Positions 18,536 to 58,939 of a DNA stretch of 64,000 nucleotides are shown piece by piece. Location: assembly GCA_030609325.1 (NCBI GenBank), contig JAUWCL010000003.1:1-64000 (forward strand). Direction: 5' to 3'. The DNA is from Candidatus Krumholzibacteriota bacterium. GTDB taxonomy: Bacteria; Krumholzibacteriota; Krumholzibacteriia; Krumholzibacteriales; Krumholzibacteriaceae. Within the stretch, counting starts at the first letter, position 1, and each line of letters begins with the position of its first letter. Below the pieces are notes generated by a model, which did not search any database, was not told the origin of the DNA, and was given only the letters and a program-made list of their open reading frames with translations. The translations under genes and the position numbers were made by a program.

Positions 18536-19425
18536 TGCTCACCACCTCCCCCACCGCCGTCCTTTTCATCATCGTCCGCATTTTCTTCCTCCCGCCTGCT
18601 CTTCTCCAGCTCGAGCCAGGCCTCACCGCCTTCCCAGTCCCTGCCGCCGATGACGATGAAGACTTCCTCGAGCTTGTTCAGGTCGGTCATGCATACGATG
18701 CCGACCCTGCGCGAGAGCTCGGTCTTCTCATCGGCGACCTGGAAGACGGTGCCGACCGGAAATCCCCCGGGAAAGACCCTGCCGAACCCCGAGGTGATGA
18801 GGGTGTCCCCCGGGAGGACGTCCTCTTCCTTGCCGACGTAGTCGAGGCTGAAGAGATTTCCCCTCTCCCATGCGAGCACACCTACCACCCTGCTTCGTTT
18901 CACGAGGCAGCTGACCAAAACAGACTTGTTGTTGAGGAGAAGGACGCGCGACGAGGAGGAAAACACCTGCGTCACGCGGCCGGCCAGCCCCTTGTAGCCT
19001 ACGACCGGCATGCCTGGGAGCACACCGGAGCCGGAACCGCGGTCGACCGTTATCGAATGATGGAACCTGCTCGACGACCTGGCGATCACGTCGCACGGCA
19101 TGAACTCGTAGAACGAGTCCTTCCTGAAGCCGAGCAGCTCTCTCAGCCGGTTTCTCTCGTCCCTGAACTGGGTCAGCCTCTCGTTCTCGTGGCTGAGCGA
19201 GACTACGAGCCCGCGGAGCCTGTCGTTTTCCGCGCTCAGTTCCTCGACGCTGATAAAGTAATCATCCGCCCTGCCGACCGGGTAGAGAAGGAAGGAGCTT
19301 ATCGACCTCACGGCCGATATCTTGCTGTCCTCGGGCCTGGTGAGCATAAACACCGAAAGGGCTATCGCGGCGGCAAGAACCGTTTTTTCGAGATGTCGGT
19401 CGAAAAGAAATGAAAAGATCTGCAT
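18532..19425 (-). CDS. mreC: Rod shape-determining protein MreC
   Basis: MreC is the bitopic elongasome protein that activates PBP2/RodA. I place the start at ATG 19425, two bases after the mreB stop; longer readings would overlap mreB. The order is a short cytosolic part (MQIFSFLFDRHLEK), one membrane helix, a coiled coil (EELSAENDRLRGLV...HENERLTQFRDERNRLRELLGF), then the double beta-barrel with ITVDRGSGSGVLPGMPVVG and GDTLITSGFGRVFPGGFPVG. The end is unusual: an acidic tail followed by a run of six glycines. Confidence 0.95.
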   Translation of the reverse strand: MQIFSFLFDRHLEKTVLAAAIALSVFMLTRPEDSKISAVRSISSFLLYPVGRADDYFISVEELSAENDRLRGLVVSLSHENERLTQFRDERNRLRELLGFRKDSFYEFMPCDVIARSSSRFHHSITVDRGSGSGVLPGMPVVGYKGLAGRVTQVFSSSSRVLLLNNKSVLVSCLVKRSRVVGVLAWERGNLFSLDYVGKEEDVLPGDTLITSGFGRVFPGGFPVGTVFQVADEKTELSRRVGIVCMTDLNKLEEVFIVIGGRDWEGGEAWLELEKSRREEENADDDEKDGGGGGGEQ

Positions 19426-19427
19426 AC

Positions 19428-20462
19428 CTACAACCGGGAGCTCTTCATTATGATGCCTTCGAACTGGTGGATGTTCCCAAGCACCTTGCCGGTGCCGAGC
19501 ACGACGCACGTCAACGGATCCTCGACGACGTTTATCGGAAGGTTGGTCTCTTCCTTGAGAAGGACATCGACGCCCCTGAGCAGCGAACCGCCGCCCGTCA
19601 TCACTATTCCCCTGTCGACGATGTCGGCCGCGAGCTCGGGCGGGGTCTGCTCAAGCGCGGTCTTGAGCGCGACGACGATCTGGCTCATCGGCTCGGCGAG
19701 CGCCTCGCGGATCTCCACGCTGGAGATGCGCAGAGTCTTGGGGATACCGGAGACGAGGTCTCTGCCCTTGATCTCCATCTCCTCTTCCGTCCCGAGGTTG
19801 GTAGCCGATCCGATGACCATCTTGACGTGCTCGGCCGTCTGGTCGCCGATCAGAAGGTTGTAAGCCTTCTTGATGTGCTGGACGATCACCTCGTCCATCT
19901 TGTCGCCGCCCACGCGTATCGATATGTCGGTCACTATCCCGTTGAGCGCTATAACGGCGATCTCCGTCGTACCTCCGCCGATATCTATGACCATGTTCCC
20001 CGACGGCTTGTCGACGGGAAGCCCCACCCCGATCGCCGCGGCGATCGGCTCGGAGATGAGGTATACTTCCCTCGCGCCGGCGTTCTGCGCCGAATCTATG
20101 ACGGCCCTGCGCTCTACCTCGGTGATCCCCGAGGGAACGCTTATGACTATACGCGGCCTTATGAAGAACCTCTTTTTCTGCGACTTGCGGATGAACTCGC
20201 GGAGCATCACCTCTGTGATCTCGAAATCGGCGATAACACCGTCCTTCATCGGCCTTATCGCCGCAATGTGGTCGGGCGTCTTGCCGAGCATCGACTTCGC
20301 CTCGAGACCCACCGCGTAGATTTTCCTCGTCTTCTGGTCGATCGCGACCACCGAGGGTTCGTTGAGGACGATGCCGCTGCCTTTGAGGTATACGAGGGTG
20401 TTCGCCGTACCGAGGTCTATCGCGATATCATTGGAGAAATATGTGCTGATTCGCCCTAACAC
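19428..20462 (-). CDS. mreB: Actin-like shape protein MreB
   Basis: The 344-residue actin homologue assembles membrane-bound filaments that orient cell-wall synthesis. Nucleotide-binding motifs are clear: DLGTANTLVYLKG (phosphate 1), VIDIGGGTTEIAVIAL (phosphate 2), GIVMTGGGSLLRG (adenosine), plus PSGITEVERRAV and EPIAAAIG. The start is GTG at 20462, 15 bp after radC. It heads mreBCD-mrdA-rodA. Compared with the usual N-terminus (an amphipathic helix before the first strand) this one is short: MLGRISTYFSNDIAIDLG. Confidence 0.98.
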   Translation of the reverse strand: MLGRISTYFSNDIAIDLGTANTLVYLKGSGIVLNEPSVVAIDQKTRKIYAVGLEAKSMLGKTPDHIAAIRPMKDGVIADFEITEVMLREFIRKSQKKRFFIRPRIVISVPSGITEVERRAVIDSAQNAGAREVYLISEPIAAAIGVGLPVDKPSGNMVIDIGGGTTEIAVIALNGIVTDISIRVGGDKMDEVIVQHIKKAYNLLIGDQTAEHVKMVIGSATNLGTEEEMEIKGRDLVSGIPKTLRISSVEIREALAEPMSQIVVALKTALEQTPPELAADIVDRGIVMTGGGSLLRGVDVLLKEETNLPINVVEDPLTCVVLGTGKVLGNIHQFEGIIMKSSRL

Positions 20463-22630: not shown

Positions 22631-23881
22631 CTAGAAGGAGTAGGTCGCGGAGATCATGCCGATCGGGGCGCCGGAATTGTCGCCGTCTTCGGGACTGAAA
22701 CCGGTCAGCCAGTAACCCATCGAGAAGGGGACTTCCTTGTTGAGCAGCAGATCGATGTCGAAATCGCCCACGTGGAATCCCAGACCGAGGTACCAGTTGA
22801 ACGGAGCCCAGGTGTACTTGCCTTCTTCGCTCGTGACTTCGTCCTCGTACTTGTAATCGGCCTTAATCAGGGCCTTGTCGCAACCGGCGCGGAAGGTCAG
22901 CCAGTCCTTGACGTCGCTCTCGAGACCGAAAACGAATCCGGGCATGATCGTCATCTTCTCTTCCTCGCTGCCGGCGTCGCTGCCGCACTCGGCGGGCTCG
23001 CCCTTGTAGAGGCCGTACGGCTCGATGCCGACGATGATCAGGTTGTCATCGTTGACATTGATGTTGGCCGCCAGGCCGAAGTCGAGCTGGAAGGCCTTGA
23101 CTCCCCAGCAGTCGGTGTCGGCATAGAAGCCCGACTCGTTCGACTTGAGGCTGAGGGTCCCAAACTTGTAGCTGAAGTATGGCACCCAGGTGATGACGTC
23201 GGTCCACTCGTAGAACATGCGCGCCCGAAAGCCCATGATGTTCTTCGAATCGGCCTCGATTACCTCGTCGAAGCCCATCACCTCGTAGGTATAGCCTACC
23301 GAGGTGTAGTCGAAAGCGAGGTCCATGCAGGTCTCATCGTTGAGTTCCCAGCGAAGGCCGAAGCCGAGGGTCGTGTAGCTTATGTAGTCCTCGTCCTTCT
23401 CGCCGTCCACGTCATAATAGTAGCCCTGATCGGCGCGCTCGATGCGGATACCGATGTCGATCGTCTCGAACTCCGTGGCCCACATGATGTTCCATTTGTT
23501 GTAGACGTTCTCGCTGAAGTCGGTGTATCCCCAGGGACCCGCCCAGCTCATGTTGTTCGGGCCGTAGGTGTACTCCTCCCACCACATGCCGAGGACACCG
23601 AACCTGTTGTCCTCGCCAAGGCCGTAGGTAAGGCCGAACCTGGCGGTCATGTTGTTGTCATACCATCCCCTGTTTTCGCCATGCTTGACCACGTCGTAGT
23701 AGCCGGCGGTGATCGTCACCAGGTTGGCGTACGAGGCGAGTGTGGCAGGCCACATGAATACGTTCGAGTCGTCCTCGATGAAGGGAGCCGTCATCGGGCC
23801 GAGCGCCCTGACGCGGGTCTCCGAAGCGAACGCGGGCATAGCGACCGCGATAATCAGAATAGCCAGTACTAACTTTTTCAT
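22631..23881 (-). CDS. Outer-membrane beta-barrel (porin-like) protein
   Basis: A 416-residue protein starting at ATG 23881 behind AGGAGG at ideal spacing. A short Sec signal peptide (KKLVLAILIIAVAMPAFA) is followed by alternating amphipathic strands rich in Tyr, Trp, Gly, Asp and Glu. The protein ends in TYSF with a terminal Phe, as expected for Bam-inserted barrels. Sixteen or so strands seem possible. A Cys-containing acidic loop (ECGSDAGSEEEK) is likely extracellular. I recognise no named family; the opening ETRVRALGPMTAPFIEDDSNVFMWPATLASY is a plausible conserved plug. It stands alone between its own promoter, a long leader and a strong terminator, which suggests high and controlled expression. 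Confidence 0.75.
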   Translation of the reverse strand: MKKLVLAILIIAVAMPAFASETRVRALGPMTAPFIEDDSNVFMWPATLASYANLVTITAGYYDVVKHGENRGWYDNNMTARFGLTYGLGEDNRFGVLGMWWEEYTYGPNNMSWAGPWGYTDFSENVYNKWNIMWATEFETIDIGIRIERADQGYYYDVDGEKDEDYISYTTLGFGLRWELNDETCMDLAFDYTSVGYTYEVMGFDEVIEADSKNIMGFRARMFYEWTDVITWVPYFSYKFGTLSLKSNESGFYADTDCWGVKAFQLDFGLAANINVNDDNLIIVGIEPYGLYKGEPAECGSDAGSEEEKMTIMPGFVFGLESDVKDWLTFRAGCDKALIKADYKYEDEVTSEEGKYTWAPFNWYLGLGFHVGDFDIDLLLNKEVPFSMGYWLTGFSPEDGDNSGAPIGMISATYSF

Positions 23882-24285: not shown

Positions 24286-25302
24286 TCAAACGGAGGGATC
24301 GGCGAGCAGATCGCGGGAGAAGAGGTAGATCCGGGCGATCTTCTTCTCATATGCCGGATCGCCCTCGAGCAGGCTGTTGATACGCACATCACCGTACGAA
24401 TGGATGAACCTGCCCCCGCCGAGGGAGATGGCAACGTGGGTGCTACGCCCCCCTTCGCCGAAGAAGAGAAGGGCTCCCTCGGGGATCTCCCGGAGACCGT
24501 CCTCCTCGACCGGGCTGCCCGTGGCCGCCTGCTGATCGGCGTCCCTCTGCGTCTCTATCCCTTCCATCCTGAAGACCCGCTTGACGAGACCGCTGCAGTC
24601 GAATCCCTTGGCCGACGTCCCGCCCCATACGTATGGTATTCCGAGGAAGCGCCTTGCCCTTTCCAGCACCGCCTCCCTTGCCGGCGGGCCGGCAGGAAGA
24701 TTCTCCAGCGATTCGGTCTCGAGGAAACCCGACCTCCCCCCGGGGAGCTCGACTTTCGTATAATCCCCCGTCGTTTCACCAGTTACAACTTTCGTCCCGG
24801 CCGTTATATCTGAAACAGGAAGGCTCCCCGCCTTCGGCTCGGACAGTACGTACGTCACGCTGGCCCCGACCATGGCCCCGGCCCGCTCCCCGTACGAGGC
24901 GGCCGTTTCCCGCGGGAAATCGCCTGCGCTCCACGACCGGACCCAGCCGTGATACCCGTCGTCGAGCATGACGAGGTACCAGTCTCCCCTCGTGTCGAGG
25001 CGGGTCATCGTCTCGCCCATGATCGCCTGGGTGAGCAGTTCGGAGGAATGCTCCGGCTCGCGCCGGACGTCGACGACGCTCGATGTGGACCAGAGCATGC
25101 CGGCCGACAAGGAGCCGGCGAGTTCGACCGTCACACCGGCCTGCAGGGAAAGCTCATTGAATACCTCGGGCCGGCTTACGGTCACGTGGAACCTTCCGCC
25201 GGAGTCAGTGACGACCTTCGACCACGAGGTCCTCCAGTCGAGCCCCTGCCTCTTCTCCGTTCCGGCGATCTCCTCACTGATCCTGGCCGCGGAATCTCTC
25301 AT
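24286..25302 (-). CDS. SH3b-NlpC/P60 cysteine peptidase, YkfC-like, cytosolic
   Basis: A 338-residue protein starting at ATG 25302, 6 nt after GGGAGGT; no signal peptide is present. Two SH3b-like modules (about residues 70-125 and 140-200) precede an NlpC/P60 domain with Cys236 in FDCSGL, His289 in THVAISLGGG and His301 in IHSYGD. The three-domain layout, the lack of a signal and the Cys-His-His spacing (53 and 12 residues) match YkfC as I recall it, a gamma-D-glutamyl-diamino-acid endopeptidase that cuts imported murein peptides in the cytosol. Tyr117 in DGYHGWV may match the YkfC Tyr that recognises the free L-Ala end. It ends the operon with dppB, dppC and a binding protein, just as ykf genes follow dpp in Bacillus. 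Confidence 0.85.
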   Translation of the reverse strand: MRDSAARISEEIAGTEKRQGLDWRTSWSKVVTDSGGRFHVTVSRPEVFNELSLQAGVTVELAGSLSAGMLWSTSSVVDVRREPEHSSELLTQAIMGETMTRLDTRGDWYLVMLDDGYHGWVRSWSAGDFPRETAASYGERAGAMVGASVTYVLSEPKAGSLPVSDITAGTKVVTGETTGDYTKVELPGGRSGFLETESLENLPAGPPAREAVLERARRFLGIPYVWGGTSAKGFDCSGLVKRVFRMEGIETQRDADQQAATGSPVEEDGLREIPEGALLFFGEGGRSTHVAISLGGGRFIHSYGDVRINSLLEGDPAYEKKIARIYLFSRDLLADPSV

Positions 25303-25306
25303 ATCA

Positions 25307-26212
25307 TTACCTCCCACCCTTCCATGGAACCAGCCTCCGCGGGTCCAGGGCGTCCCTCATGCCGTCCCCAACGAGGTTTATCGAGCAAATCACGAGTGTC
25401 AGGACCAGGCCCGGGAGGATCGTCAGCCACGGCGCCGTGCGCATCAGCGGTATCCCCCGCGCGATCATCCCTCCCCAGCTCGGATCGGGAGGCTGGATAC
25501 CGAGGCCGAGGAAGCTGAGGCTCGACTCGGCCATGATCATCATCCCCAACCCCAGCGTGAATACCACTATGAGCGGGGACAGGCATTGCGGAAGTATATA
25601 CCTTACAATTAGTTTAAGATGACTCGCCCCGGCGGCCCTCGCCGCCTGGACGTAATCGCGGCCCCTGACCGAGAGGACCTGGGCGCGCACGAGCCTCGCC
25701 ATTGCGGCCCACCCGACAACCCCGAGAGCGGCGCTGAGGGCCCAGACTCCGGGAGTGACGACAGCCATGATCGCGATCAGGAGCAGGAGGGTCGGGAAGG
25801 CGAACGTGATATCGGCCAGCCTCATGATGAACCCGTCGGGCTTGCCGCCGAAATATCCGGCGACCGTACCGGCAAGCAGGCCGAGGATCAGGGAAAGCGT
25901 CCGAGCCGCCAGTCCCACGCCGAGCGACACCCTTCCCCCGTAAAGGACCCTCGAGAGGACGTCCCGCCCGAATGCGTCGGTGCCGAAAAGATGCTCCGCC
26001 GACGGGGGCTGAAGGGAGGCGGAGAGTTCCATCTCGACAGGATCAAAGCGGGTAAGCAGCCCGGGCATGAGAGTGGCGGCCGCGATCGCGGCGAGAACGA
26101 CCAGCCCCGCGACAGCCGCGCGGTTGAAAACGAACCTTGCCGCCGCCCTCTTCGACTCTCTCCTCCGCCTCCGCCTCACAGCACATTTTTTCATGTTCGC
26201 CGCGGCCGCCAC
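25307..26212 (-). CDS. dppC: Peptide ABC transporter permease, DppC/OppC type
   Basis: Inner-membrane permease of 301 residues. A basic N-terminal stretch precedes the first helix (AAVAGLVVLAAIAAATLMPG). The family landmarks LFGTDAFGRDVLSRVLYGGRVSL and the EAA coupling loop (RDYVQAARAAGASHLKLIVRYILP) are present. LSFLGLGIQPPDPSWGGMI and NLVGDGMRDALDPR follow. The GTG at 26212 overlaps the dppB stop by one base; an ATG six codons in is an alternative start. Together with dppB it would form the pore for a periplasmic-binding-protein-dependent peptide importer. No ATPase gene is in this operon. Confidence 0.93.
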   Translation of the reverse strand: MAAAANMKKCAVRRRRRRESKRAAARFVFNRAAVAGLVVLAAIAAATLMPGLLTRFDPVEMELSASLQPPSAEHLFGTDAFGRDVLSRVLYGGRVSLGVGLAARTLSLILGLLAGTVAGYFGGKPDGFIMRLADITFAFPTLLLLIAIMAVVTPGVWALSAALGVVGWAAMARLVRAQVLSVRGRDYVQAARAAGASHLKLIVRYILPQCLSPLIVVFTLGLGMMIMAESSLSFLGLGIQPPDPSWGGMIARGIPLMRTAPWLTILPGLVLTLVICSINLVGDGMRDALDPRRLVPWKGGR

Positions 26213-27150
26213 TATTCCTCGACCCCCTCTCCGCGTATCCGGGGGTCTATGAATCCGTAACTTATATCAACGATGAGGTTTACAAAAACGAAGAGGATCG
26301 CCATGAATAACACGGCGCCCTGGATGACGGGGAAATCCCTCCTCAGTATCGACTGCACTATAAGCCTCCCGAGCCCGGGCCACCCGAATATCGACTCGGT
26401 CAGGACCGAGCCGCTAAGATAGCTCCCGAAATCGGTCCCGACGATCGTCACGACCGGGATCAGAGCGTTTCTGAAGACGTGCTTTCCCATTACGGCCCTC
26501 TCGCCGAGACCCTTCGCCCGGGCGGTCCTGACGAAATCCTCCGATCCCGCATCGAGGAACCCCGCCCTGGTCACCCGCGCCACGGTCGCCATCGAGGCGA
26601 AGGAAAGCGTCAGAGCCGGCAGAACGAGGTGCCTGATCGAGCCTCCCCCGTACCCCGACGGGGGAAGGATCTCGAGCCTGATGGCAAAGAGGTGAATCAG
26701 CAGCAGCCCCAGCCAGAATACGGGGATCGACACTCCGACGAGGGTGAGTGCCATCAATGACTTTCCCGCCCAGGGTATGCGTCCCGAGCCGGCGAGGGCT
26801 CCGGCCGCTATACCCCCGGCCACGGCGATGAGCATCGCCGCCCCCGCGAGGGTGAGGGTACGGGGAAACCTCTCCCTTATCGTCTCTATCACGGGCCTTC
26901 CCGTGACGAACGACCTGCCGAGGTCAAACCTCGCGACCCGGCCGAGGTAATCGATATAGCGGAGCGCGAGGGGGCGATCGAGCCCGAGCTCTCCGCGGAG
27001 GCGCTCGAGAGTCTCCTCATCGTATCTCTCGCCGACGAGGGAGAGCACCGGATCGCCAGGAATGACGTACATTATTATAAACGTTACAGTTACGACTCCG
27101 AAGAGGATCGGTATCAGCAGGATGAGCCTTCTGGCTATGAATCTTCCCAT
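26212..27150 (-). CDS. dppB: Peptide ABC transporter permease, DppB/OppB type
   Basis: A 312-residue inner-membrane permease. Recognisable parts are the N-terminal helix (RLILLIPILFGVVTVTFIIM) with PGDPV, GRSFVTGRPV, and the EAA loop SEDFVRTARAKGLGERAVMGKHVFRNALIPVV. FGWPGLGRLIVQSILRRDFPVIQG and the ending DPRIRG follow. It pairs with dppC. The start is ATG at 27150, 16 bp after the binding-protein stop, and its stop overlaps the dppC start. Confidence 0.95.
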   Translation of the reverse strand: MGRFIARRLILLIPILFGVVTVTFIIMYVIPGDPVLSLVGERYDEETLERLRGELGLDRPLALRYIDYLGRVARFDLGRSFVTGRPVIETIRERFPRTLTLAGAAMLIAVAGGIAAGALAGSGRIPWAGKSLMALTLVGVSIPVFWLGLLLIHLFAIRLEILPPSGYGGGSIRHLVLPALTLSFASMATVARVTRAGFLDAGSEDFVRTARAKGLGERAVMGKHVFRNALIPVVTIVGTDFGSYLSGSVLTESIFGWPGLGRLIVQSILRRDFPVIQGAVLFMAILFVFVNLIVDISYGFIDPRIRGEGVEE

Positions 27151-27166
27151 AGTACTCCGGCGCCGT

Positions 27167-28717
27167 CTATCTCAGCGACACCCCTGTGAACCTCTGACCG
27201 TTGAATATCACAGGTATCTCATACCCCTCGAGCCGGTGCGACACCACCTCGTACCTGACGGGAAACCACAGAAATATCCAGGGAGCGGCCTTCATCACCC
27301 TTTTCTCCGCTTCCGCGTACATCTCCCACCTCGCCGCCGGATCACTCACGCCCGAGGCGATGTCGAGGATCGAATCGACAGCAGCATCGGCAAATCCGGC
27401 CCTGTTCCCCCCTCCACCCCTGTTTTCCGAGTGAAAGAGGGGCACGAGGAAATTGCCCGCCTCGGGATAGTCGGCGAACCAGTCGAGATAGAACGCGTCG
27501 GGCGTCCCCCTGTCGACCGCCTGCTTGAAGGCGCTCCACTCGCGGGTGACTATCTTCACCTCGATACCCGCCCGGGCGAGGAACCCCTGCACGCTCTCGA
27601 GGATCCGGCCCGACTCGGGATTCTCCCTCTGCCATATCTCCATGGAGAACCCGTCGGGGTAGCCGGCCTCCTCGAGAAGCTGCACGGCCCCTTCCGGATC
27701 GTACCGGTAGAGAGGCCCTGGAAGGGGAGATTCCCTGAGCCCCGCGGGAATGACTCCTGTCGCCTTCTCCGCCGCTCCGAAGAGGAGGTGCCCGATCACC
27801 GATTCGACGTCGATCGCCATATTGAGGGCCCTCCGCACACGGGGATCGTCAAAGGGCGGTTTTTCGTTGTTCAGACCGATGTATACGATCCTCAGCTCAG
27901 ACCTTCTCAGTAGTCTCACGCCCGCCGAGCGCCAGAGCTCGAGCTCCGCCGGGGGGATCTCGAGGACATCGAGGTTTCCCACCTCGAACTCGGCGATCCT
28001 CGTCATCGTCTCCGGGATGAGCCTGATGCTGATCCTCGGCACTCCGGAACCTGCTTCGGGGTTGAACAGGTTCCTCTCGAGGACGATCACATCACCGGAA
28101 TTCCACGAGACGAGCCGCCACGGCCCGCTCCCCGTCGGCTTCCTCCCGTAATCCCTGCCGAGTGAATCGGCAGCAACGGGGGAGACGATCCCTGCGGCGG
28201 GCATGGCGAGCAGGCTGAGAAAGTGGGCCGCGGGATTCCCGAGCCTTATGACAAGCGTGGAATCGTCCCTTGCCTCGATCGAGCACCCGCCGGCGCGGCC
28301 GGTGTGAAAGTCAGGCGCCCCCGCAACCGGCTCGAGTACCCACCACCTCGGAGAGGCCGTCCAGGGCGCGACGAGCCTCGTCAGGGACCGCTCCACGTCG
28401 AACGCCGTCACGGGATCACCGTCGCTGAACCTGCTCCCGGCGATGTGAAATACATACTCAAGCCCGTCCCGGGAGATGGTCCATCTGCGGGCGAGATCGG
28501 GCGCGACGGATCCGTCCGGCTCAAACCTGACGATGTTCGAATGTATCAGGGAGCTGACCCAGCCGGAGGAATAGTCTACGGCGAAAGCGGGATCGAGATT
28601 GGTCGGTTCGGTCTGCAGGGCGAGCCTGAGAGCAGGAGGCCCTTCCCCACCACCGCACGAAACAATCAGCAGGGCGGATATGAAAGAGGCGGTGATAGAC
28701 AGAAAACGTCTGATCAT
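27167..28717 (-). CDS. Peptide-binding lipoprotein (SBP family 5)
   Basis: The 516-residue extracytoplasmic solute-binding protein of the DppA/OppA/MppA family delivers peptides to DppBC. The signal peptide ends in the lipobox I-V-S-C (Cys21), so it is lipid-anchored. Family 5 marks are EPTNLDPAFAVD, LARRWTISRDGLEYVFHI, FSDGDPVTAFDVERSLTR, GSGPWRLVSW, and the second lobe with NNEKPPFDDPRVRRALNMAID. The YkfC-like peptidase two genes on suggests the ligand is a murein tripeptide or related peptide, but this is inferred from context only. It starts 7 bp after the GWxTD gene. Confidence 0.92.
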   Translation of the reverse strand: MIRRFLSITASFISALLIVSCGGGEGPPALRLALQTEPTNLDPAFAVDYSSGWVSSLIHSNIVRFEPDGSVAPDLARRWTISRDGLEYVFHIAGSRFSDGDPVTAFDVERSLTRLVAPWTASPRWWVLEPVAGAPDFHTGRAGGCSIEARDDSTLVIRLGNPAAHFLSLLAMPAAGIVSPVAADSLGRDYGRKPTGSGPWRLVSWNSGDVIVLERNLFNPEAGSGVPRISIRLIPETMTRIAEFEVGNLDVLEIPPAELELWRSAGVRLLRRSELRIVYIGLNNEKPPFDDPRVRRALNMAIDVESVIGHLLFGAAEKATGVIPAGLRESPLPGPLYRYDPEGAVQLLEEAGYPDGFSMEIWQRENPESGRILESVQGFLARAGIEVKIVTREWSAFKQAVDRGTPDAFYLDWFADYPEAGNFLVPLFHSENRGGGGNRAGFADAAVDSILDIASGVSDPAARWEMYAEAEKRVMKAAPWIFLWFPVRYEVVSHRLEGYEIPVIFNGQRFTGVSLR

Positions 28718-28724
28718 CGGCCGG

Positions 28725-30056
28725 TCAGATACTCCTCGTATCGTAGAGCATGTAGAGCCCGGATCCCATCGAATCCTTGAATATGAAAGCGATCCCTTTG
28801 GAATAGTAGTACCAGATCTTCAGCCTGCTGCCGAGAGTCCATCCATCGCGGTCGACCGTATTGTCGGGCGGGCCGTATCTGATATAGATCCTTCCCATGT
28901 CGGTCTTCCAGCCCGGACCGTGCGAACCGAAGTTCTCCAGAGTGAATCTCACCCGGCGCAGAAACTCGCTCAACGCTTCGTTGATGTCGGTTGTCCTTGT
29001 CGGATCCTTCGATTTCCAGTACCTGTTCCACTCGTCTATCCGCTCTTCGGGGGAAACGTTGCGAAGCCGCTCGATATCGTCGTCTTCGACCATGTAGCCG
29101 AGCAGCTCGAGCGTATCCTCGAAACACCCGCTGAACATCGCCCTCCCGAGCAGCATGGTAAAGCTGCCTGTCCTGACGACCTTCTTCGTCGAGTTGGGTA
29201 TCGAAACGGCCGCGGTGATCTCGTAAAAGCCGAGGGGCAGGTCGTCGACGTTCATCTCTATGCAGAACATGCCCCGGCCCTTTCTGTCCACCTCGAAGGT
29301 CTGCCTCGTATATGCCTTGATGTGCTTTCTGGAATCCCGCACCCTGACTGTCACTTCCATCCCCCTGCCCGTTCTGTTTTTCATGGGGGAGAGTACGATC
29401 CAGCTCATCCGGATCCATCCCTCGAAACCGATGAAGACCTCGCCGGCAAGCGGCCTGAAACCGTCGGGGATCTCGCTCGAGCAGACGGAGAAAGACAGCT
29501 CCCCGGGGGGAGGTTTGCGGCCCCTTCCGGGATCGCCGGGAGTGGAGAAGACCGGATCGGACATCTCGAAGAGCCCGTGCTCCATGCCGTATAGCCTGAC
29601 TTCGACGCGGCGCTCATACTTCAGCGAGGTCTTTACCACCTCGATGATCACCCTCAGGTCGTATTTTCCCGAGCCCATGGGGATCTTCTTCGTCACCTCG
29701 GAGAGCATACCGGCGCTGCGGGTCATCTTGTAGTCCAGAACGTTCACCGTCTTCTCGATGACCTCGCCGCGGACCCTTTCGCCCTCGTCGTCATGTATCT
29801 CGATATATATCCTGTAGTCGGCAACGTAGCCTGAAGGCCGGCGGAAAAAGACGAGGCGCCTGTAATCGATCGCCGTGCTGACGACGAGCAGGACGTTCCC
29901 CTCGGCATCGATGCTCTGCCCCGCGGAAAGCTCGAACGGCCTTTTGACCGACCTGGTCGTCACCTGCGCCGCAGCGTCGCTCACGGTCGACGGCCCGAGC
30001 GATATGGCCGTCGCGGCCAGAAGCAGCGACGTTATTGCAACAAATCCCCTTCGCAT
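28725..30056 (-). CDS. GWxTD-domain exported protein
   Basis: The 443-residue protein starts at ATG 30056 behind AGGAGG. A signal peptide (residues 1-30) is followed by beta-rich domains of unknown type. These contain repeated patterns like YRIYIEIHDDEGERV, GKYDLRVIIEVVKT and LPLGFYEITAAV. A C-terminal GWxTD domain follows, with EERIDEWNRYWKSKDPT leading to GWKTD (382-386) and GRIYIRYGPPD. The domain is named for its motif and has no established function. It occurs in several FCB-related and acidobacterial lineages. Here it is the first gene of an operon with a peptide-binding lipoprotein, dppBC and a murein-type peptidase, so an envelope role connected to peptide uptake is possible. Confidence 0.8.
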   Translation of the reverse strand: MRRGFVAITSLLLAATAISLGPSTVSDAAAQVTTRSVKRPFELSAGQSIDAEGNVLLVVSTAIDYRRLVFFRRPSGYVADYRIYIEIHDDEGERVRGEVIEKTVNVLDYKMTRSAGMLSEVTKKIPMGSGKYDLRVIIEVVKTSLKYERRVEVRLYGMEHGLFEMSDPVFSTPGDPGRGRKPPPGELSFSVCSSEIPDGFRPLAGEVFIGFEGWIRMSWIVLSPMKNRTGRGMEVTVRVRDSRKHIKAYTRQTFEVDRKGRGMFCIEMNVDDLPLGFYEITAAVSIPNSTKKVVRTGSFTMLLGRAMFSGCFEDTLELLGYMVEDDDIERLRNVSPEERIDEWNRYWKSKDPTRTTDINEALSEFLRRVRFTLENFGSHGPGWKTDMGRIYIRYGPPDNTVDRDGWTLGSRLKIWYYYSKGIAFIFKDSMGSGLYMLYDTRSI

Positions 30057-30075
30057 CTTTACCTCCTACATGATA

Positions 30076-30105
30076 CATTATAGCCATCATGGGGCGGAGC
30101 GGGCA
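30076..30105 (-). promoter_or_regulatory. Promoter of the GWxTD-SBP-dppBC operon
   Basis: On the minus strand TTGCCC (30105-30100) and a perfect TATAAT (30081-30076) are 18 bp apart. Transcription would start near 30069, giving a very short leader of about 12 nt that still includes the AGGAGG. This makes the GWxTD gene the head of a new operon rather than the tail of the efflux operon. Confidence 0.6.
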
Positions 30106-30149: not shown

Positions 30150-31430
30150 TTATTCGTAGTGCAGGGCCTTTATCGGGTCCATCCTCGCGGCCCTGTTGGC
30201 CGGATAGAGGCCGAAGATCAGGCCGATCGAAGCGGAGAAAACGAACGCGACGACTATCCAGATCAGCGGGACAGAGTATGGGAACCTGATCAGCCTCGCC
30301 ACCCCTCTCGCCGCCAGAAGCCCGAGAAATATCCCGATCAGCCCTCCCGTCCCGGTCAGGGTCGCTGCCTCGATGAGGAACTGCTGCATGATGTCGGTCC
30401 TCCTCGCTCCCATGGCCATCCTGATGCCGACTTCGCGAGTCCTCTCGCTGACCGATATGAGCATGATATTCATCACGCCGATTCCACCCACCATCAGCCC
30501 TATCGACGAGATCACTACAAGCACGAGGCTTATGTAGGTGGTTATGCTCGCCAGCATCTCCCTGAAGCCCTCGGACGTCGTGATGTAGAAATCGTTCTCC
30601 TCGCCGGGACCCAGCTTCCTCGAGGCCCGCAGGAGGGCGTGGACCTCCTCGACCCCCTCCTCGAGCTCGTACTCCGGCTTTATCGTGATCCCCATCTGGT
30701 AATCGTCGAAACGGTCCCCGAGATCTTTCTCGTACGTCGTGTACGGGACCACGGCGTAGTTGTCGCTGATGCCTCCGAGGATACTCCCCCTCGTCGCCAT
30801 CGCTCCGACCACTTCGTACTGGTGATTGTCGATCTTGATCCACTTGCCGATCGGATCGCGGTGGGGAAAGAGGTCCTTCGCCGGTCCGAAACCGAGTACG
30901 ATCACGCGCCTGCTGCGATCGGCCTCGAACTCGGTATAGAACCTGCCGTGCTCGATAGTGATGCTGTACATATGCCCGAAGTTATGCGTAGACCCGACGA
31001 CCTGTATGAGGTTCGTCCGTTCTCCTTCGTACCGCAGGACACGCATCCTTCCCTGCGGGTCGATATTGAGGTCGACACGCTCACAGCTGCCGCAGTTCTC
31101 CTCGAGGAACTTCACGTCCCTTATCGAGAGCTGCTTGCGCCTCAGGAGGTCCCGCCTGTCCCGGCCACCACCCATCGGGTCGAACCGGGAGATAAAGAGA
31201 TATGGCCTGTTGGCCGAGACGACGTCCTTCTGTACCCGTTTGCCGAGACCCGACATGACGGTGACCATGGCAAGCACGGTCGTCACGCCGATCGCCACAC
31301 CGACTATGAGCAGACCCGAGCGCATCCTGTGAGTGCGGATCACCTCGACGGCCTGCCGGAAGTTCTCCTTCCAGACCTGACCCTTTCCTTCGCGGGCCCT
31401 TTCTATTGTTCCGTCAGCCGCCATCCTCAT
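30150..31430 (-). CDS. MacB-type ABC permease, second copy (no ATPase domain)
   Basis: A 426-residue FtsX/MacB-fold permease with four membrane helices. Helix 1 follows RTHRMRSGLLIVGVAIGVTTVL. A large periplasmic domain (about 60-290) comes next. The C-terminal block contains GGIGVMNIMLISVSERTREVGIRMAMGARRTDI and the last helix, ending in LYPANRAARMDPIKALHYE. It lies 2 bp after the first permease gene and differs clearly from it in the periplasmic part. The pair probably forms a heterodimer driven by the separate ATPase at 34025. The start may be either of two close ATGs (31430 or 31424). Confidence 0.9.
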   Translation of the reverse strand: MRMAADGTIERAREGKGQVWKENFRQAVEVIRTHRMRSGLLIVGVAIGVTTVLAMVTVMSGLGKRVQKDVVSANRPYLFISRFDPMGGGRDRRDLLRRKQLSIRDVKFLEENCGSCERVDLNIDPQGRMRVLRYEGERTNLIQVVGSTHNFGHMYSITIEHGRFYTEFEADRSRRVIVLGFGPAKDLFPHRDPIGKWIKIDNHQYEVVGAMATRGSILGGISDNYAVVPYTTYEKDLGDRFDDYQMGITIKPEYELEEGVEEVHALLRASRKLGPGEENDFYITTSEGFREMLASITTYISLVLVVISSIGLMVGGIGVMNIMLISVSERTREVGIRMAMGARRTDIMQQFLIEAATLTGTGGLIGIFLGLLAARGVARLIRFPYSVPLIWIVVAFVFSASIGLIFGLYPANRAARMDPIKALHYE

Positions 31431-31431
31431 C

Positions 31432-32661
31432 CTACTCGTAATGCAGAGCGACCACCGGATCGAGGTTCGCCGCCTTGCTTGCCGGATACGTCCCGAAGAC
31501 GAGACCTATGAAAAACGTCACGATGAGCCCCGCCGCTATCGACCAGGGGGCGATCACATACGGCAGCGGGGAGATTATCGAGATGATCGCCGCGATCGTG
31601 AAGCCGATAAGTATCCCCAGGACGCCACCGATCAGCGACAGGGTGACCGCCTCTACGATGAACTGCCAGACGATGTTCGACTTCCTCGCGCCGAGGGCCT
31701 TCCTCAGGCCGATCTCCTTCGTCCGCTCGGTGACGGAAACGAGCATGACGTTCATCAGCACGACACCGCCGACCACGAGTGCGATCGACACTACGAATAT
31801 CAGGGCGTTGAATATCGAGGTCGATATCTTCTCCCAGAGCGAGATGAGATTCTCCGAGGTAACGATTGCGAAATCGTTCTCCTCCATCGGCCTGAGCCCG
31901 TGCCTGATCCTCATAGCCATCGTCGCCTCGTCGACGGCCTGCTGGAGGAGCGTTATGTCGGCCGCCTTGACCTTGATGTCGATCGAGGTCCTCGAACCAT
32001 ATACCTTGAGGAAGGTATTGATCGGGATGTATACGAACCTGTTTCTCGATTCCCCGAGGACGGTACCGAGGTCCTCTACTGCTCCTATGACGGTAAAATG
32101 CTTTCTTCCGATCTTGATCCTCGCCCCGAGCGGGTCGCGCCCGGGGAAGAGTCTCGTATAGACCTCCCAGCCGAGCACCGCCACGTTCGTCGACTTCTGG
32201 TCCTCGAGCCGCGAGAAATGCCTCCCCAGGAAAAGGGGAGCGTCGTCGATCATCGGATATTCCTCAGACCTTCCCTTGATCGCTATCCTGTCGACCCACT
32301 CGTCGCGAAAGCTCACCTGATCCTCGCCGCGCGCCGCCGCCCCGACATACGAGGCTGACGGGATCTTGTCGCGCAGATAGTCGACATCGCCGAGCCTGAT
32401 CCTCGGGTTGCGCGCAAGAGCCTCGAGAAAGGCGTCGAGATCGGTGATCGCCTCGAAGAAGTTGATTCGCTCGATATCGAAGACGTTGCTCCCCTCACCG
32501 GCGACCTCCTCCTTGACGTAAGAGTCTATGCCGCCGATGAGCGACACCACGGCGATGACCGACATCGTCCCGACGATATTGCCGAGAAGCGTGAGGAATG
32601 TGCGTAGCTTGTTCTCACGCAGCGCCCTGAGGGCGATATTCATTCCCTGAAATATAAGCAT
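31432..32661 (-). CDS. MacB-type ABC permease, first copy (no ATPase domain)
   Basis: A 409-residue permease with the MacB/LolC topology. Helix 1 follows LRALRENKLRTFLTLLGNIVGTMSV. The MacB periplasmic core domain comes next. The FtsX block contains GGVVLMNVMLVSVTERTKEIGLRKALGARKSNIVWQF, and the protein ends in TYPASKAANLDPVVALHYE. Such proteins do not pump across the inner membrane but couple ATP hydrolysis to periplasmic movement (mechanotransmission). It starts 7 bp after the macA-like gene and is followed by a second permease, so the usual homodimer may here be a heterodimer. Confidence 0.92.
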   Translation of the reverse strand: MLIFQGMNIALRALRENKLRTFLTLLGNIVGTMSVIAVVSLIGGIDSYVKEEVAGEGSNVFDIERINFFEAITDLDAFLEALARNPRIRLGDVDYLRDKIPSASYVGAAARGEDQVSFRDEWVDRIAIKGRSEEYPMIDDAPLFLGRHFSRLEDQKSTNVAVLGWEVYTRLFPGRDPLGARIKIGRKHFTVIGAVEDLGTVLGESRNRFVYIPINTFLKVYGSRTSIDIKVKAADITLLQQAVDEATMAMRIRHGLRPMEENDFAIVTSENLISLWEKISTSIFNALIFVVSIALVVGGVVLMNVMLVSVTERTKEIGLRKALGARKSNIVWQFIVEAVTLSLIGGVLGILIGFTIAAIISIISPLPYVIAPWSIAAGLIVTFFIGLVFGTYPASKAANLDPVVALHYE

Positions 32662-32668
32662 GGCCCGC

Positions 32669-33922
32669 TCACTTCTTCGCGGCCTTCCTCGTGATCTTGA
32701 CCCTCTGCCCGTCCTTGAGGTCCCTGATCGCCCTGTAGTTGCCGCTTACCACCTTGTCGCCCTTCTCGAGGCCGGATACGACCTCGAAGTGAGTCTGTCC
32801 GGAGACGCCGATCTTTATCCGCCTGAACTCGGCCCTGCCATCGACCACGACGAATACGCCCTCGACATCGCTGCTCTCTTTATCCTTTTTCGCTGCCGTA
32901 GAGTCAGCTGTAGCCGAGTCGGTTTTCGCAGCGTACCCCTTTAAGTCCTTTTCCCGCCTTACCGTCAGGCTCTGGATCGGGATGGCGAGCGCGTTTTCGG
33001 CCCGCGCGGCGATTATCTCCGAATCGGCCGAAAGACCCGGCCTGACGTTGAGAATCGTATCTAAAACGGTGATGACGACCTTGAAATCGACGCCCTGCCG
33101 CCCCGATACCGAGGAGGACAGTGTCGGGCTGTTGCCGACCTCCGTCACGATGCCGGAATACGAGGTGTCGGGAAAGGCATCCAGGGTGACCTTGGCGGAC
33201 TGTCCCATCTCGATGCTGACCACCTCGGTCTCGTCGACCTCGACCTCCGCCTCGATGGTGGAGAGGTCTGCTATCGTCATCAGCACGGTCCCGGGATTGT
33301 TCAGCGTTCCCATGATCGCGATCTCGCCCTCCTCGATGTTGAGGCGCGTGACGATGCCGGCCATCTCGGCCTCGATCGTCACCTCCTGGAGGTTGTGCCT
33401 GGCGCTGGAGAGCTGCGCCTCCTGCTGTCTGACAAGCTGCCGGGCAGATTCGAGGCTGGATGCGCCGACGTCGCGGGCGGTCTTCGCATCGTCGACCTCC
33501 TTGTCGGTGAGGTATCCCTGAGCAAACAGCCTCTCCGCTCTCCTGAGGTCGCTCTTGTACTGCTCCAGCTGGTACCTCGCCTGGCGCTCGCCGGCCTTCG
33601 CCGATTCCACAGCCGCCTCCAGCCGGTCCACGGTGGTCTCGAGCTGTATCGGGTCGATCTGGATGAGGAACTGCCCCTGCTCGACGTAGTCCCCTTCCTT
33701 GACCGCGACTCTGGTAACCTTGCCGATGCTCGAGGCGCTGATGTCGATCTGCCGCTTCGGCTTGATGCTTCCCGAGGCGGATATGATCATCTCAAGATCC
33801 TTACGGCCCACTTCCTCCACCTGGACCGTGAGCTCCTTGCCGCCCTTGGCCTTGAGGTTGATCAGCACGAGCACGAGCACCACCACGACGACACCGATGG
33901 CTATCCAGTGCTTCCTGGTCAT
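32669..33922 (-). CDS. Periplasmic adaptor protein (MacA/HlyD family)
   Basis: The 417-residue membrane fusion protein links the permease to a TolC channel. After one N-terminal anchor (WIAIGVVVVVLVLVLINL) comes a first half-lipoyl motif (SASGSIKPKRQIDISASSIGKVTRVAVKEGDYVEQGQ). A long coiled-coil hairpin (about 70-170) follows, then the second half-lipoyl (EMAGIVTRLNIEEGEIA), a beta-barrel and the membrane-proximal domain. A short, Ser/Asp/Lys-rich insert near residue 340 (TDSATADSTAAKKDKESSD) is an unusual linker. The start is ATG 33922 behind AGGAGGAG. It belongs to the tolC-ATPase-macA-permease operon. Confidence 0.93.
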   Translation of the reverse strand: MTRKHWIAIGVVVVVLVLVLINLKAKGGKELTVQVEEVGRKDLEMIISASGSIKPKRQIDISASSIGKVTRVAVKEGDYVEQGQFLIQIDPIQLETTVDRLEAAVESAKAGERQARYQLEQYKSDLRRAERLFAQGYLTDKEVDDAKTARDVGASSLESARQLVRQQEAQLSSARHNLQEVTIEAEMAGIVTRLNIEEGEIAIMGTLNNPGTVLMTIADLSTIEAEVEVDETEVVSIEMGQSAKVTLDAFPDTSYSGIVTEVGNSPTLSSSVSGRQGVDFKVVITVLDTILNVRPGLSADSEIIAARAENALAIPIQSLTVRREKDLKGYAAKTDSATADSTAAKKDKESSDVEGVFVVVDGRAEFRRIKIGVSGQTHFEVVSGLEKGDKVVSGNYRAIRDLKDGQRVKITRKAAKK

Positions 33923-34024
33923 CTCTCCTCCTGGTTTTTTTACCGCTTGCGTTTCCGAAAGACCCTGCGATCAGAGCGGATCGGGGCTTTCTACAGGATC
34001 ATTGCCGCCCTGCAGGAAGGGCCG

Positions 34025-34705
34025 TCAGCCCGTCCTGACGTCCGATTCTATCTTTCCGTCGAGGAGCCTTATCACGCGCCTGGTGTATTCGGCGATATGC
34101 TTCTCGTGAGTCACCATCACTATCGTGTTGCCGGCCTGGTGGATCTTGTCGAAGAGCGACATGATCTCGATGCCCGTCTTGCTGTCGAGGTTTCCCGTCG
34201 GTTCGTCGGCGAGTATGATCGACGGCCTGTTGACCATCGCCCTGGCGATGGCCACCCTCTGGCGCTGTCCTCCGGACAGCTCGTTCGGCCTGTGCTTCGC
34301 CCTGTCGGTGAGACCGACCGATTCGAGCACCTCCTCGGCCCTTCTGCGGCGCTCGTCGGCCGGGATCCCGCCGTATATCAGGGGCAGCTCGACGTTCTGC
34401 GCCGCGGTAGCCCTGGGAAGCAGATTGAACGTCTGGAAGACGAATCCTATCTCCCTGTTCCTGATCCTGGCCAGCTCGTCGTCGCTGAGGTTGCTGACCT
34501 CTTTGCCGTTGAGCCAGTAGTCGCCCGCCGACGGCGTATCGAGGCATCCGAGCAGGTTCATGAAGGTCGACTTCCCCGAGCCCGAAGGACCCATGATCGC
34601 GACGTATTCGTTCCTTTCGATCTCGAGATCGATCCCCGCGACCGCCTCTATCTTCTGTATCCCGACCTCGTATATCTTCTTGACCCCGCTGACCTTTATC
34701 AGCAT
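34025..34705 (-). CDS. ABC transporter ATPase, MacB/LolD type
   Basis: A 226-residue cytosolic ATPase that powers the adjoining permease pair. Walker A is GPSGSGKST, the signature is LSGGQRQR, and Walker B is [12 protein letters not shown]. The MacB/LolD-specific [19 protein letters not shown] is present. I place the start at ATG 34705 ([15 protein letters not shown]), one base after the tolC-like stop. GGAGGG lies upstream inside the tolC-like gene. The longer reading from 34771 would overlap that gene by 65 bp with no homology. Confidence 0.95.
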
Positions 34706-34706
34706 C

Positions 34707-36077
34707 TCATTCTCCCTCCAACCCGGCCCTGAGCCTCGATTCCCTGCCGGTCGCCCTGTCGAGGTCGGCAACGGCGATGAGGTAGTCGCACTTCGCGTCG
34801 ATTACAACCGCCTTTGCCTCGGTAAGGGCCACCTGGGCCGCGATCGTTTCGAGCATCGTCCCAGCGCCCACCCTGTACCTCTCCTCTGCGAGCCGCACGT
34901 CTTCCTGCGCCTGCTCGACCGTCTCCGTGGCGACCGCAACCCGCTCGATCGCCTCGTTGATGACTATGATGAGGCTCTTGATCTCCCTGACGGCGTTGAG
35001 CTTGCTCTTCTCGAGCTGGTACTCGGATATCCTGTGATCCGCCTTTGCCGTCTTGACGTTGGCGCTTGTGAAGAACCTGTCGAAGACGTTGATCCGCATG
35101 TAGGCGGTGATGTTCCAGGAATACTCTTCCCTGAAGAAATTGAGGTTCTCGGCCATCCCCCGGTCGCTCCAGAAATATCCGAAGTTCGCGCCGAATATCG
35201 GCAGCCATCCGCTCTTGGCAACCCTCACACCGGCGTCCGCCCCCTCGAGGTAGGCCCGGAGCCCCCTGAGGTCAGATCTGTTCTGCATCGCGAAGTCGAT
35301 CTCGGTGAAGGGATCGGGATTGATCATGTTCATCACAAGCGCCGTGTCGACACCCAGATCGGAGTAGTCGTCTATGTTGAGGACCGCTATCAGGTCCTCA
35401 CGGGCAAGCTCCACCTGGTTCTTCGCCCTTATCAGGTCGAGCTTCGTGTTCGAGTGACGCACCTTCGCCTTCAGGACGTCGGCCAGCGTGCCGGAGCCGA
35501 CCTCGAGCAGCGCCTCGGTCCTGTCGAGGCTCTGCCTCGCCTGGTCGACGCTCTCATCGGCAACGACTGTCAGCCTCTTGAATCTGACGAGGTTGTAGTA
35601 GGCCCGGATGACGGTGGCCGTTATCATGTCGTAGTTGTACTGAAGCTCTTCCTTCGCTCCTTCGCGGTTCCGCTTCGCCTGTCTGAGCCCCGCGTAGTTG
35701 GCTCCGCCGTCCCAGAGGACGATGTCGGAGCCGATACGGAATGCGTAGTCCTCGTAACCGAATCCCTGCTGCTGCACCGGGCGGCCCGAATCGTCGATCA
35801 ATACGGAAGACGGGCCGTAGTACCGGTGGCCGGCGTAGAAATCGAGCTGCAGATCGGGCAGGAGGTTCCCGTAGCCGCAGAGCACGTTACTCTCCGATTT
35901 CTTGAGCGACTGCCGCGCCATCCCCATGTCGGGATTGTTCACGAGCGCGATATCGATACACTCCCTCAGCGACAGGATCCTCCCCGCGGAAAACGCCCCG
36001 GATACCGCCGTCGAGATCATGATTACCGCGCTCACTGCAATTACGGAGAGCGACATTCCTCTTTTTGCTCTAAACAT
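34707..36077 (-). CDS. TolC-family outer-membrane channel
   Basis: The 456-residue outer-membrane efflux protein begins with a signal peptide (through about residue 31). Two similar halves of coiled-coil helices follow, with [26 protein letters not shown] opening the first. [22 protein letters not shown] and [26 protein letters not shown] occur in the later part. It should trimerise into a tunnel docked on the MacA-like adaptor. It is the first gene of the efflux operon; no good -10 was found upstream although a TTGACA occurs at 36193-36188. Confidence 0.92.
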
Positions 36078-41394: not shown

Positions 41395-41427
41395 CACCAG
41401 ACCTCCTGAAATTGATCTCACCGTCAT

Positions 41428-43914: not shown

Positions 43915-43949
43915 CGTTGGGACCTCCAATATCTCTCCACAGATTTTTC

Positions 43950-56986: not shown

Positions 56987-57949
56987 CTAATCCACATGCA
57001 GCCAGCACGCAGCGCATCGCCCGGGCGAGACTTCCCTGAGCCGCGGGGTTTCCGCACTGCAGCGGCCGAACGCCTTCGGGCACCTCGTATGGAACGCGCA
57101 CCCCGCAGGGATGTCGACGGGACTCGGCACGTCGCCGCTTATCGCCACCCTCACCCTGTCACCCGGCTTCGCCGAGGGGATCGACGCGAGCAGCCCCTCT
57201 GTGTATGGATGAAGGGGTGAAGAAAAAAGTTCCACCGCCGGACCGGACTCGACGATCCGGCCGAGGTACATCACCGAGATACGGTCACTCACATGCTCGA
57301 CGACGCCGAGATCATGCGCGACGAAGAGATAGGTAAGTCCGAGATCGCTCTGGAGGTCGGCGAGGAGATTGATTATCTGTGCCTGGACCGATACGTCCAG
57401 CGCGGAGACAGGCTCGTCGGCCACGACGATGTCCGGTTCCACGGCCAGGGCCCGCGCTATCCCTATCCTCTGCCTCTGCCCTCCCGAGAACTCGTGCGGG
57501 TACCTCGAATACGCCGTCCGCGGAAGCCCGACCTTGTCGAGAAGCTCGCCGACCCGCCTTTCCACATCGGCGCCCCTTGCCAGTTTGTGTATCTTTATAC
57601 CCTCCGCGATCGTGCTGCCCGCAGTCAGCCTCGGGTTGAGGGAGGAGTACGGGTCCTGGAAGATCATCTGGATCTTCCTGCGCGCCCTGCGCAGTTCCCT
57701 GCCCCTGAGGGCGAAAAAATCGGTCCCGTCTATCTCGAGCGTCCCTTCGGTCGGCTCCTCGAGCCTGAGGAGCAGGCGCGCCAGTGTACTCTTGCCGCAG
57801 CCCGATTCTCCGACCAGCCCGAGGGTCATTCCCTTTCTGAGCTCGATATCGACGCCGTCGACCGCCCTGACCAGCTGCCTGCCTCGCAGGAAAAGCCCTC
57901 CCTGGCTCCTGTAGTACTTCTTCAGCCCCTTCGCGACAAGAATACTCAT
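56987..57949 (-). CDS. oppF: Peptide ABC transporter ATPase, OppF/DppF type
   Basis: A 320-residue ATPase. The start is ATG 57949, overlapping the oppD stop by 4 bp (ATGA). Walker A is GESGCGKST, the Q-loop is [11 protein letters not shown], the signature is [15 protein letters not shown], and Walker B is [19 protein letters not shown]. The Opp C-terminal extension has [12 protein letters not shown] and a four-cysteine cluster ([15 protein letters not shown], then CAACWL). The earlier [15 protein letters not shown] is typical of the F subunit. No binding protein is encoded in this operon. Confidence 0.95.
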
Positions 57950-58923
57950 CCGTCGCCCCCCTCGCAGAGCCAGCACCTCGCCAGGCGGCCGCCGGGAAGA
58001 TCGAAGAGCGGAGGTTCTGTGGCACATTTTTCGAATCTCGCCTGGCACCGGTCGCTGAACCTGCATCCTTCGGGGAGATCGAGCGGATCGGGTACGTTGC
58101 CGGGGATCATCGGCAATCTCTCGAGTCTCCGGCCGAGCCTCGGGAGCGAATCGATGAGCCCCTTCGTGTACGGGTGCGCCGGCGAACCGAAGAGCTCCTC
58201 CACCGGCGATTCCTCGACCACTGCCCCCGCGTACATCACGACGACCCGGTCGACCATCTGCGCGACGACGGCCAGATCGTGCGTGATGAGAAGGATCGCC
58301 ATGTTCCTGCCAACGCGCAGCTCGGCGAGGAGCTCGATGATCTGAGCCTGGACCGAGACATCGAGCGCCGTCGACGGCTCATCGGCGATAAGGAGCTTCG
58401 GCTGGCAGCTGAGCGCCATCGCGATCATCACCCTCTGCCTCATTCCCCCGCTCATCTGGTGGGGATAGCTGCTGTAGCGCTTCTCCGGATCGGGCATCCT
58501 GACGAGCCGGAGCATCTCGATTGTTTTTTCCTTCGACTTCCGGCGGCCGAGCTTCTGGTGGAGGGCTATCGCCTCCCTTATCTGCTCTCCACAGGTGAAG
58601 ACGGGATTGAGGCTGCTCAGCGGCTCCTGGAAGATAATCGATATCTCGTTGCCCCTGACCTTCCTCATCTCCTTCTCGCTCAGACCGAGGAGGTCCCTCC
58701 CCTCGAAGAGGATGCTCCCTCCCTCGATCCGTCCGGGGGGATCGGTCACCAGTCTCATTATCGAGAGGGCCGTAACGCTTTTGCCGCATCCCGACTCGCC
58801 GACCAGCCCGACCGTCTCTCCGCGCCCGACGGTGAAGCTCACGCCGTCTACCGCCCTGGCCGTCCCGGCTTCTGTGCGGAATACCGTTCTCAGATCCTCT
58901 ATCTTCAGGAGCTCTTCCGGCAT
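57946..58923 (-). CDS. oppD: Peptide ABC transporter ATPase, OppD/DppD type
   Basis: A 325-residue ATPase pairing with OppF. It reads [22 protein letters not shown], Walker [22 protein letters not shown], signature [15 protein letters not shown] and Walker [20 protein letters not shown]. The C-terminal part has [15 protein letters not shown] and Cys-rich [15 protein letters not shown]. The MSGGMRQRV form and the Thr in EPSTALD are typical of D subunits. It lies 16 bp after oppC and overlaps oppF. Confidence 0.96.
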
Positions 58924-58939
58924 ATTCCTCCTCTGCCCT

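Follow-up and report, generated by a model that had tools for sequence, protein, structure and literature searches.

Why a secreted protein with an orphan GWxTD domain should head a gene cluster that otherwise appears to encode a peptide importer and a cytosolic peptidase is the question raised by a locus of Candidatus Krumholzibacteriota bacterium (GCA_030609325.1). The sequence analysed, referred to as the window, is a stretch of 64,000 nucleotides (nt) of contig JAUWCL010000003.1, in which the feature spans positions 24286-30105. As an earlier note had read from the DNA alone, and as gene calls and domain searches confirm, five tightly packed genes on the minus strand encode a GWxTD-domain protein, a binding lipoprotein, a DppB-like and a DppC-like permease and an SH3b-NlpC/P60 peptidase, separated, in order from the GWxTD gene, by 7, 16, -1 and 4 nt. 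We consider it probable that this cluster constitutes a module for the uptake and cleavage of murein peptides. Its import and cutting functions are well supported, while the part played by the GWxTD protein is one that we infer. The pathway is of a known kind, with the GWxTD gene as its new and stable companion.

The peptidase gene (24286..25302, minus strand) gives matches to SH3_3 and NLPC_P60. Its reading frame can open at a GTG at position 25317, but the most likely start, correcting the former, is the ATG at 25302, which is preceded by the sequence GGGAGGT and predicts a protein of 338 residues. Signal peptides, here and in the GWxTD protein, were judged by eye. None is readable in the peptidase from either start, and 14 aligned members of its family share a hydrophilic N-terminus of the same kind, likewise without a signal peptide. 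An exported peptidase was ruled out because neither the start with the good ribosome site nor the alternative starts of the relatives yield a hydrophobic N-terminus. The enzyme thus remains signal-less, as first proposed, even with its corrected start.

The residues of the enzyme point in turn to the YkfC subfamily. Its catalytic triad C236-H289-H301 aligns with C238-H291-H303 of Bacillus cereus YkfC (BcYkfC), with a spacing of 53 and 12 residues in both proteins, and its residues Y117 and D254 are the equivalents of Tyr118 and Asp256, bearing out the spacing and the tyrosine near position 117 that had initially suggested this assignment. Membership in the YkfC subfamily is judged by the presence of Asp256 together with Tyr118 in SH3b1, a pair that reads the free N-terminal L-Ala of the substrate (PMC2954226). 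The window peptidase combines this pair with the catalytic Cys-His-His and the SH3b1-SH3b2-NlpC/P60 fold, and its alignment with BcYkfC marks Y117, Y224, W226, D235, S237, R253 and D254 as putative substrate residues. To count these positions, four duplicates were removed from 45 cluster-peptidase rows, leaving 41 distinct sequences, one of which is a fragment lacking all of the scored columns. Asp256 is kept in 40/40 covering rows, Tyr118 in 39/40 (with one Cys) and both catalytic histidines in 38/38.

Structural comparisons lead to the same result. When the PDB was searched by sequence, Bacteroides DPP VI ranked first (2e-36) and BcYkfC third (3e-25). The AlphaFold model of the peptidase (pLDDT 88.6), superposed as the earlier note had proposed, matches DPP VI (3pvq) with a Z-score of 25.9 and a root-mean-square deviation of 2.9 over 262 residues, and BcYkfC (3h41) with a Z-score of 23.4 and a deviation of 3.0 over 248 residues. 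The fold match runs from residue 61 (DPP VI) or 68 (BcYkfC) to the C-terminus; it does not include residues 1 to ~60, which form a helix and strands that are conserved in the family. Sequence, residues and fold together support the prediction of a YkfC-type cytosolic gamma-D-Glu-diamino-acid endopeptidase.

The importer parts in the cluster are a binding protein and two permeases of the Dpp/Opp type. The family-5 solute-binding lipoprotein (SBP_bac_5; 27167..28717, minus strand; 516 residues; PF00496, 2e-74) has the lipobox IVSC, and its Cys21 is invariant in 17/17 family members. Equally invariant is Asp416, which aligns with the Asp408 column of solved DppA, where this residue contacts the charged N-terminus of the ligand. 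Counted by hand, it shares a column with residue 436 of the Yersinia pestis DppA chain, which we take to be mature Asp408, assuming a signal of 28 residues. The DppB-like permease (26212..27150, minus strand) matches PF00528 and PF19300 (BPD_transp_1_N), with Opp2B as its best NCBIfam model (337 bits, cut-off 350), and the DppC-like permease (25307..26212, minus strand) matches PF00528 and OppC_N, with Opp4C as its best model (308 bits, cut-off 350).

No DppD/DppF-type ATPase gene is present within the cluster. The whole genome contains two oligo_HPY matches, both in the window (57059-57253 and 58024-58218), which fall in an OppF-like (56987..58066) and an OppD-like ATPase (57946..58923), also assigned with NCBIfam. 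Both belong to an OppB-OppC-OppD-OppF operon (56987-60780, minus strand) ~27 kb from the cluster, beside which no binding-protein gene of the type searched for was found. Three matches to family-5 binding proteins occur in the genome, and three permease pairs were identified, one in the cluster, one in this operon and one on contig 49. Since a single oligo_HPY pair thus faces three permease pairs, a pattern that recurs in a relative assembled as a single contig (G004), the simplest reading is that the only OppD/OppF-type pair of the genome is probably shared with the cluster permeases. A comparable arrangement, two permeases with one ATPase pair, has been described for Borrelia (PMC5736914). 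The proposal of peptide uptake followed by cytosolic cutting therefore stands with regard to the YkfC-type enzyme and its linkage to an importer, whereas murein peptides are the substrate that we infer and the ATPases would come from outside the cluster.

The cluster is a standing feature of its lineage. Our survey covered 80 Krumholzibacteriota genomes (families f1-f8), including 20 from the family of the window. Gene order within this family was compared in all genomes but G016, which gave no match, for a total of 20 stretches from 19 genomes. The order mreB, radC, rhomboid, porin, peptidase, dppC, dppB, binding protein, GWxTD, exporter is kept wherever contigs allow, and gene order is also conserved across the phylum. 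YkfC-type peptidases were found in 41 of the 80 genomes, a total tallied by hand that includes G027, counted for its SH3b match though it scored weakly in the peptidase search; 38 of the 39 genomes without the enzyme belong to family f6. In 34 of the 41 peptidase genomes, the cluster includes a GWxTD gene on the same contig, and the setting that the earlier note regarded as new is a regular one. Contig ends split the locus in six further genomes (G001, G017, G019, G023, G034 and G076), and G026 lacks a neighbouring GWxTD gene. In G076, which is 65% complete, a GWxTD gene of this type was found on no contig.

The neighbours of the two genes are less constant than the two genes themselves. The importer genes accompany the peptidase in families f1, f2, f4, f7 and f8. 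In families f3 and f5, GWxTD directly precedes the peptidase, with no transporter between them. Among the loci fetched from Eisenbacteria, a YkfC-type enzyme is present in 7/13 genomes and directly follows GWxTD in 7/7, its aligned start lying 21-39 nt beyond the stop codon of GWxTD. Because families f3 and f5 and all seven of these Eisenbacteria keep the pair without the transporter, GWxTD and peptidase are, as judged by gene order, a stable pair that extends beyond the importer. The survey of GWxTD genes suggested in the earlier note thus recovers a pairing with an NlpC/P60 gene in Krumholzibacteriota and Eisenbacteria, and many genomes have GWxTD without the peptidase. Conversely, the stretches fetched around the YkfC-type genes of two Zixibacteria, one Calditrichaeota and one Cloacimonetes genome contain no GWxTD gene; the Calditrichaeota gene adjoins an epimerase-like gene, as in Bacillus.

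In the module that we envisage, free stem peptides from peptidoglycan (L-Ala-gamma-D-Glu-meso-diaminopimelate (DAP), with or without D-Ala) would be caught by the binding lipoprotein and enter through the DppB/DppC-type channel, driven by the OppD/OppF-type pair from the other opp operon in the window. The YkfC-type enzyme would then cut between D-Glu and DAP in the cytosol, yielding L-Ala-D-Glu and DAP, the latter of which could return to the wall or to lysine synthesis. The secreted GWxTD protein would act outside the cytoplasmic membrane, where it would most likely hold wall material or peptides or present them. Consistent with this model, the cluster is collinear with a block of wall-elongation genes (rodA, PBP2, mreD, mreC and, presumably, as named from its sequence, mreB; 14936-20462, minus strand).

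Other enzymes of the pathway were sought as well. Neither Mpl over the cut-off nor an LdcA-type LD-carboxypeptidase (PF02016), the class to which YkfA belongs, was detected by profile searches in any of the 20 family genomes (0/20 for both). Re-ligation of the peptides is therefore unlikely, and cleavage appears to fit better. The absence of Mpl for peptide re-use would also suit a module that scavenges foreign cell walls instead of recycling the cell's own, as would the porin-like gene (22631-23881, minus strand) that follows the peptidase gene after ~400 nt. This gene, whose only match is an N-terminal, sub-cut-off one to the PopA porin family, was detected in f1, f2, f4, f7, f8 and some Eisenbacteria. 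We regard scavenging as somewhat unlikely, given that the cluster lies beside the mre/PBP2/rodA genes for wall growth, and the two uses are not exclusive.

What the GWxTD protein contributes is more difficult to grasp. Encoded at 28725..30056 (minus strand), it comprises 443 residues and scores well above the cut-offs of both TIGR04514 (88.3 vs 28 bits; 4e-25) and PF20094 (43.8 vs 26.9 bits; 3e-11). An N-terminal secretion signal is followed by beta-sandwich domains at residues ~42-155 and ~187-303 and by the GWxTD domain at ~305-443; its AlphaFold model (pLDDT 82.6, predicted template-modelling score 0.66) shows two beta-sandwiches and a mixed C-terminal domain. Fold searches with this model returned matches restricted to residues 38-304, all of them generic beta-sandwiches, with Foldseek TM-scores of ~0.2. 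The best of them (Z 10.6), the carbohydrate-binding domain of Wzt aligned with residues 160-308, was tied with transglutaminase-family domains. The closest relatives of the GWxTD protein are Krumholzibacteriota proteins, and a full-text literature search on the GWxTD domain (TIGR04514, PF20094) found no relevant paper. Gene position, secretion signal and partner enzyme point to a role in the periplasm that involves wall material, and the tie to the murein-peptide process is one of association only. It is tempting to speculate, although we think this proposal tentative and rather improbable as it stands, that within this clade GWxTD proteins are dedicated to the recovery of murein peptides, outside the cytoplasm: their beta-sandwiches would bind peptidoglycan or its peptides, and the proteins would hand peptides on as partners of the YkfC-type enzyme, in a pairing kept, or even formed twice, in Krumholzibacteriota and Eisenbacteria. 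If true, this would be the first function for the GWxTD domain.

Several observations weigh against the interpretation of the cluster as a murein-peptide module with a GWxTD partner. The search for an L-Ala-D/L-Glu epimerase elsewhere in the genome, as advised in the earlier note, revealed no clear candidate but a single MR_MLE_C match below the cut-off (24.8 vs 29.4 bits). Absences in this genome rest on an assembly that is 95% complete, so that an epimerase gene may have been missed. MR_MLE matches over the cut-off occur in 10/20 family genomes, and four such loci resemble L-Ala-D/L-Glu epimerases or related racemases when compared with NCBIfam, at scores below its cut-offs. In the peptidase, Ala255 replaces Ser257 of BcYkfC, as it does in DPP VI and in 19/40 cluster members. 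The NCBIfam models for the permeases and the binding protein, with GsiB, DppA and Opp as the nearest, all remain below their cut-offs and therefore do not name the substrate. Moreover, families f3 and f5 and the Eisenbacteria show no transporter linked to the peptidase, and GWxTD genes without the peptidase are found in many genomes of Eisenbacteria and other groups, some of them near mreB. Finally, GWxTD of Zixibacteria directly follows a MacB-like exporter, which precedes GWxTD in the family of the window as well.

The last of these points raises the possibility that GWxTD belongs to the exporter directly upstream (30150-36077, minus strand), which consists of a TolC-like protein, an ATPase (34025-34771), an HlyD-like protein and two MacB/FtsX-type permeases, and that the dpp and peptidase genes merely come after it. 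Exporter permeases stand just before GWxTD in f1, f2, f7 and most of f8, and three Zixibacteria loci (L064, L076 and L078) have permease genes directly before a GWxTD gene without the peptidase. Such a relationship nevertheless appears unlikely to us, since no exporter permease was detected beside the GWxTD-peptidase pair in f3, f4, f5, one f8 genome (L143) and Eisenbacteria, and since the two genes lie so close together in the latter.

Similarly unlikely, in our estimate, is that the pairing reflects inherited gene order only, such that adjacency within a stretch conserved near mreB throughout the phylum would say little about function. The order from mreB to a second GWxTD gene is indeed strongly conserved, and in L061, L063 and L070 GWxTD lies near mreB without a YkfC-type peptidase. 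A tree of GWxTD proteins bears on this issue. It was obtained by a quick tree search and comprises 128 rows, many of them gappy, with 40 of 125 inner branches open; it excludes hits of fewer than 120 residues and the Krumholzibacteriota loci L048-L055 and L079, which repeat cluster genomes. Thirty-eight rows are labelled as linked to a peptidase, including L131 and L140, whose contigs end before that gene. This label requires only two changes on the tree, both forced by starred branches, and there are thus few independent pairing events: GWxTD and peptidase may have been joined on two occasions, or on a single one followed by losses. The low number of changes favours mere inheritance, whereas the starred branches, which separate the linked Eisenbacteria clade from the linked Krumholzibacteriota rows, argue against it. 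The f6 genomes, moreover, lack both partners in this form, and the pair persists although its exporter, importer and porin neighbours differ between lineages, in line with a tight link between its members. Least credible among these alternatives, and in our view distinctly improbable, is a general di/oligopeptide or glutathione-like importer with the peptidase as a bystander that recycles peptides from another route: the binding protein is nearest to the GsiB/HbpA/DppA types, DppA/OppA types are broad in ligand range and the peptidase of f3, f5 and Eisenbacteria stands without these transporter genes, but binding protein, both permeases and peptidase keep together in five families and are separated by only a few nucleotides in the window.

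Other features of the region and of GWxTD loci may be recorded here. The final 49 bases of the feature span (30057-30105) lie upstream of the GWxTD gene and contain one promoter-like match, which is no evidence for a promoter because the scan yielded fewer sites than expected by chance. The second GWxTD protein of the window (38897-40408, minus strand; TIGR04514, 64.5 bits) is conserved in the phylum, and its gene adjoins ExbB-like (37807-38667) and TonB-like (36301-36933) genes. Weak, sub-cut-off matches to PorV- and PorZ-like proteins of type IX secretion fall within 40450-47156 (minus strand), next to the gene of a TonB-dependent receptor that carries a carboxypeptidase-regulatory-like domain. 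Outside Krumholzibacteriota, no general recurrent neighbour of GWxTD genes was found, and the clusters detected are lineage-specific. In the Aminicenantes loci L088, L095, L110 and L121, GWxTD genes occur in pairs close to a set of genes on the opposite strand that recurs among these loci and that includes, by eye, D-Ala-D-Ala ligase-like and MltG-like proteins.

Collectively, our findings extend YkfC-type murein-peptide recycling, as predicted here, to poorly known phyla; a survey from 2010 had placed such enzymes mainly in four phyla (PMC2954226). They also provide the GWxTD orphan domain with a concrete and testable setting, and the pair without an importer narrows the question to what a secreted GWxTD protein does for a cytosolic cutter of wall peptides.

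Among the closest known systems is the one already invoked in the earlier note, that of Bacillus subtilis, in which the ykf genes adjoin dpp and YkfC processes murein tri-, tetra- and pentapeptides (PMC2954226). Like dpp/ykfABCD, the window cluster places a Dpp-type importer beside a signal-less YkfC, but it lacks an LdcA-type, an epimerase and an ATPase gene and contains the additional GWxTD gene. In Chlamydia trachomatis, OppABCDF and YkfC (CT127) have been proposed to act as one unit, combining Opp import with gamma-D-Glu-mDAP cutting in the cytosol (PMC9928106); the available part of that report does not mention GWxTD, which the window cluster possesses. Bacteroides DPP VI (BT_1314, BACOVA_00612) provides the best sequence and fold matches for the peptidase, which differs from it by ~60 extra N-terminal residues. 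In Escherichia coli, finally, MppA serves as a dedicated binding protein for murein peptides that uses shared Opp parts (PMC5736914), whereas the window cluster has permeases of its own and would share no more than the ATPases.

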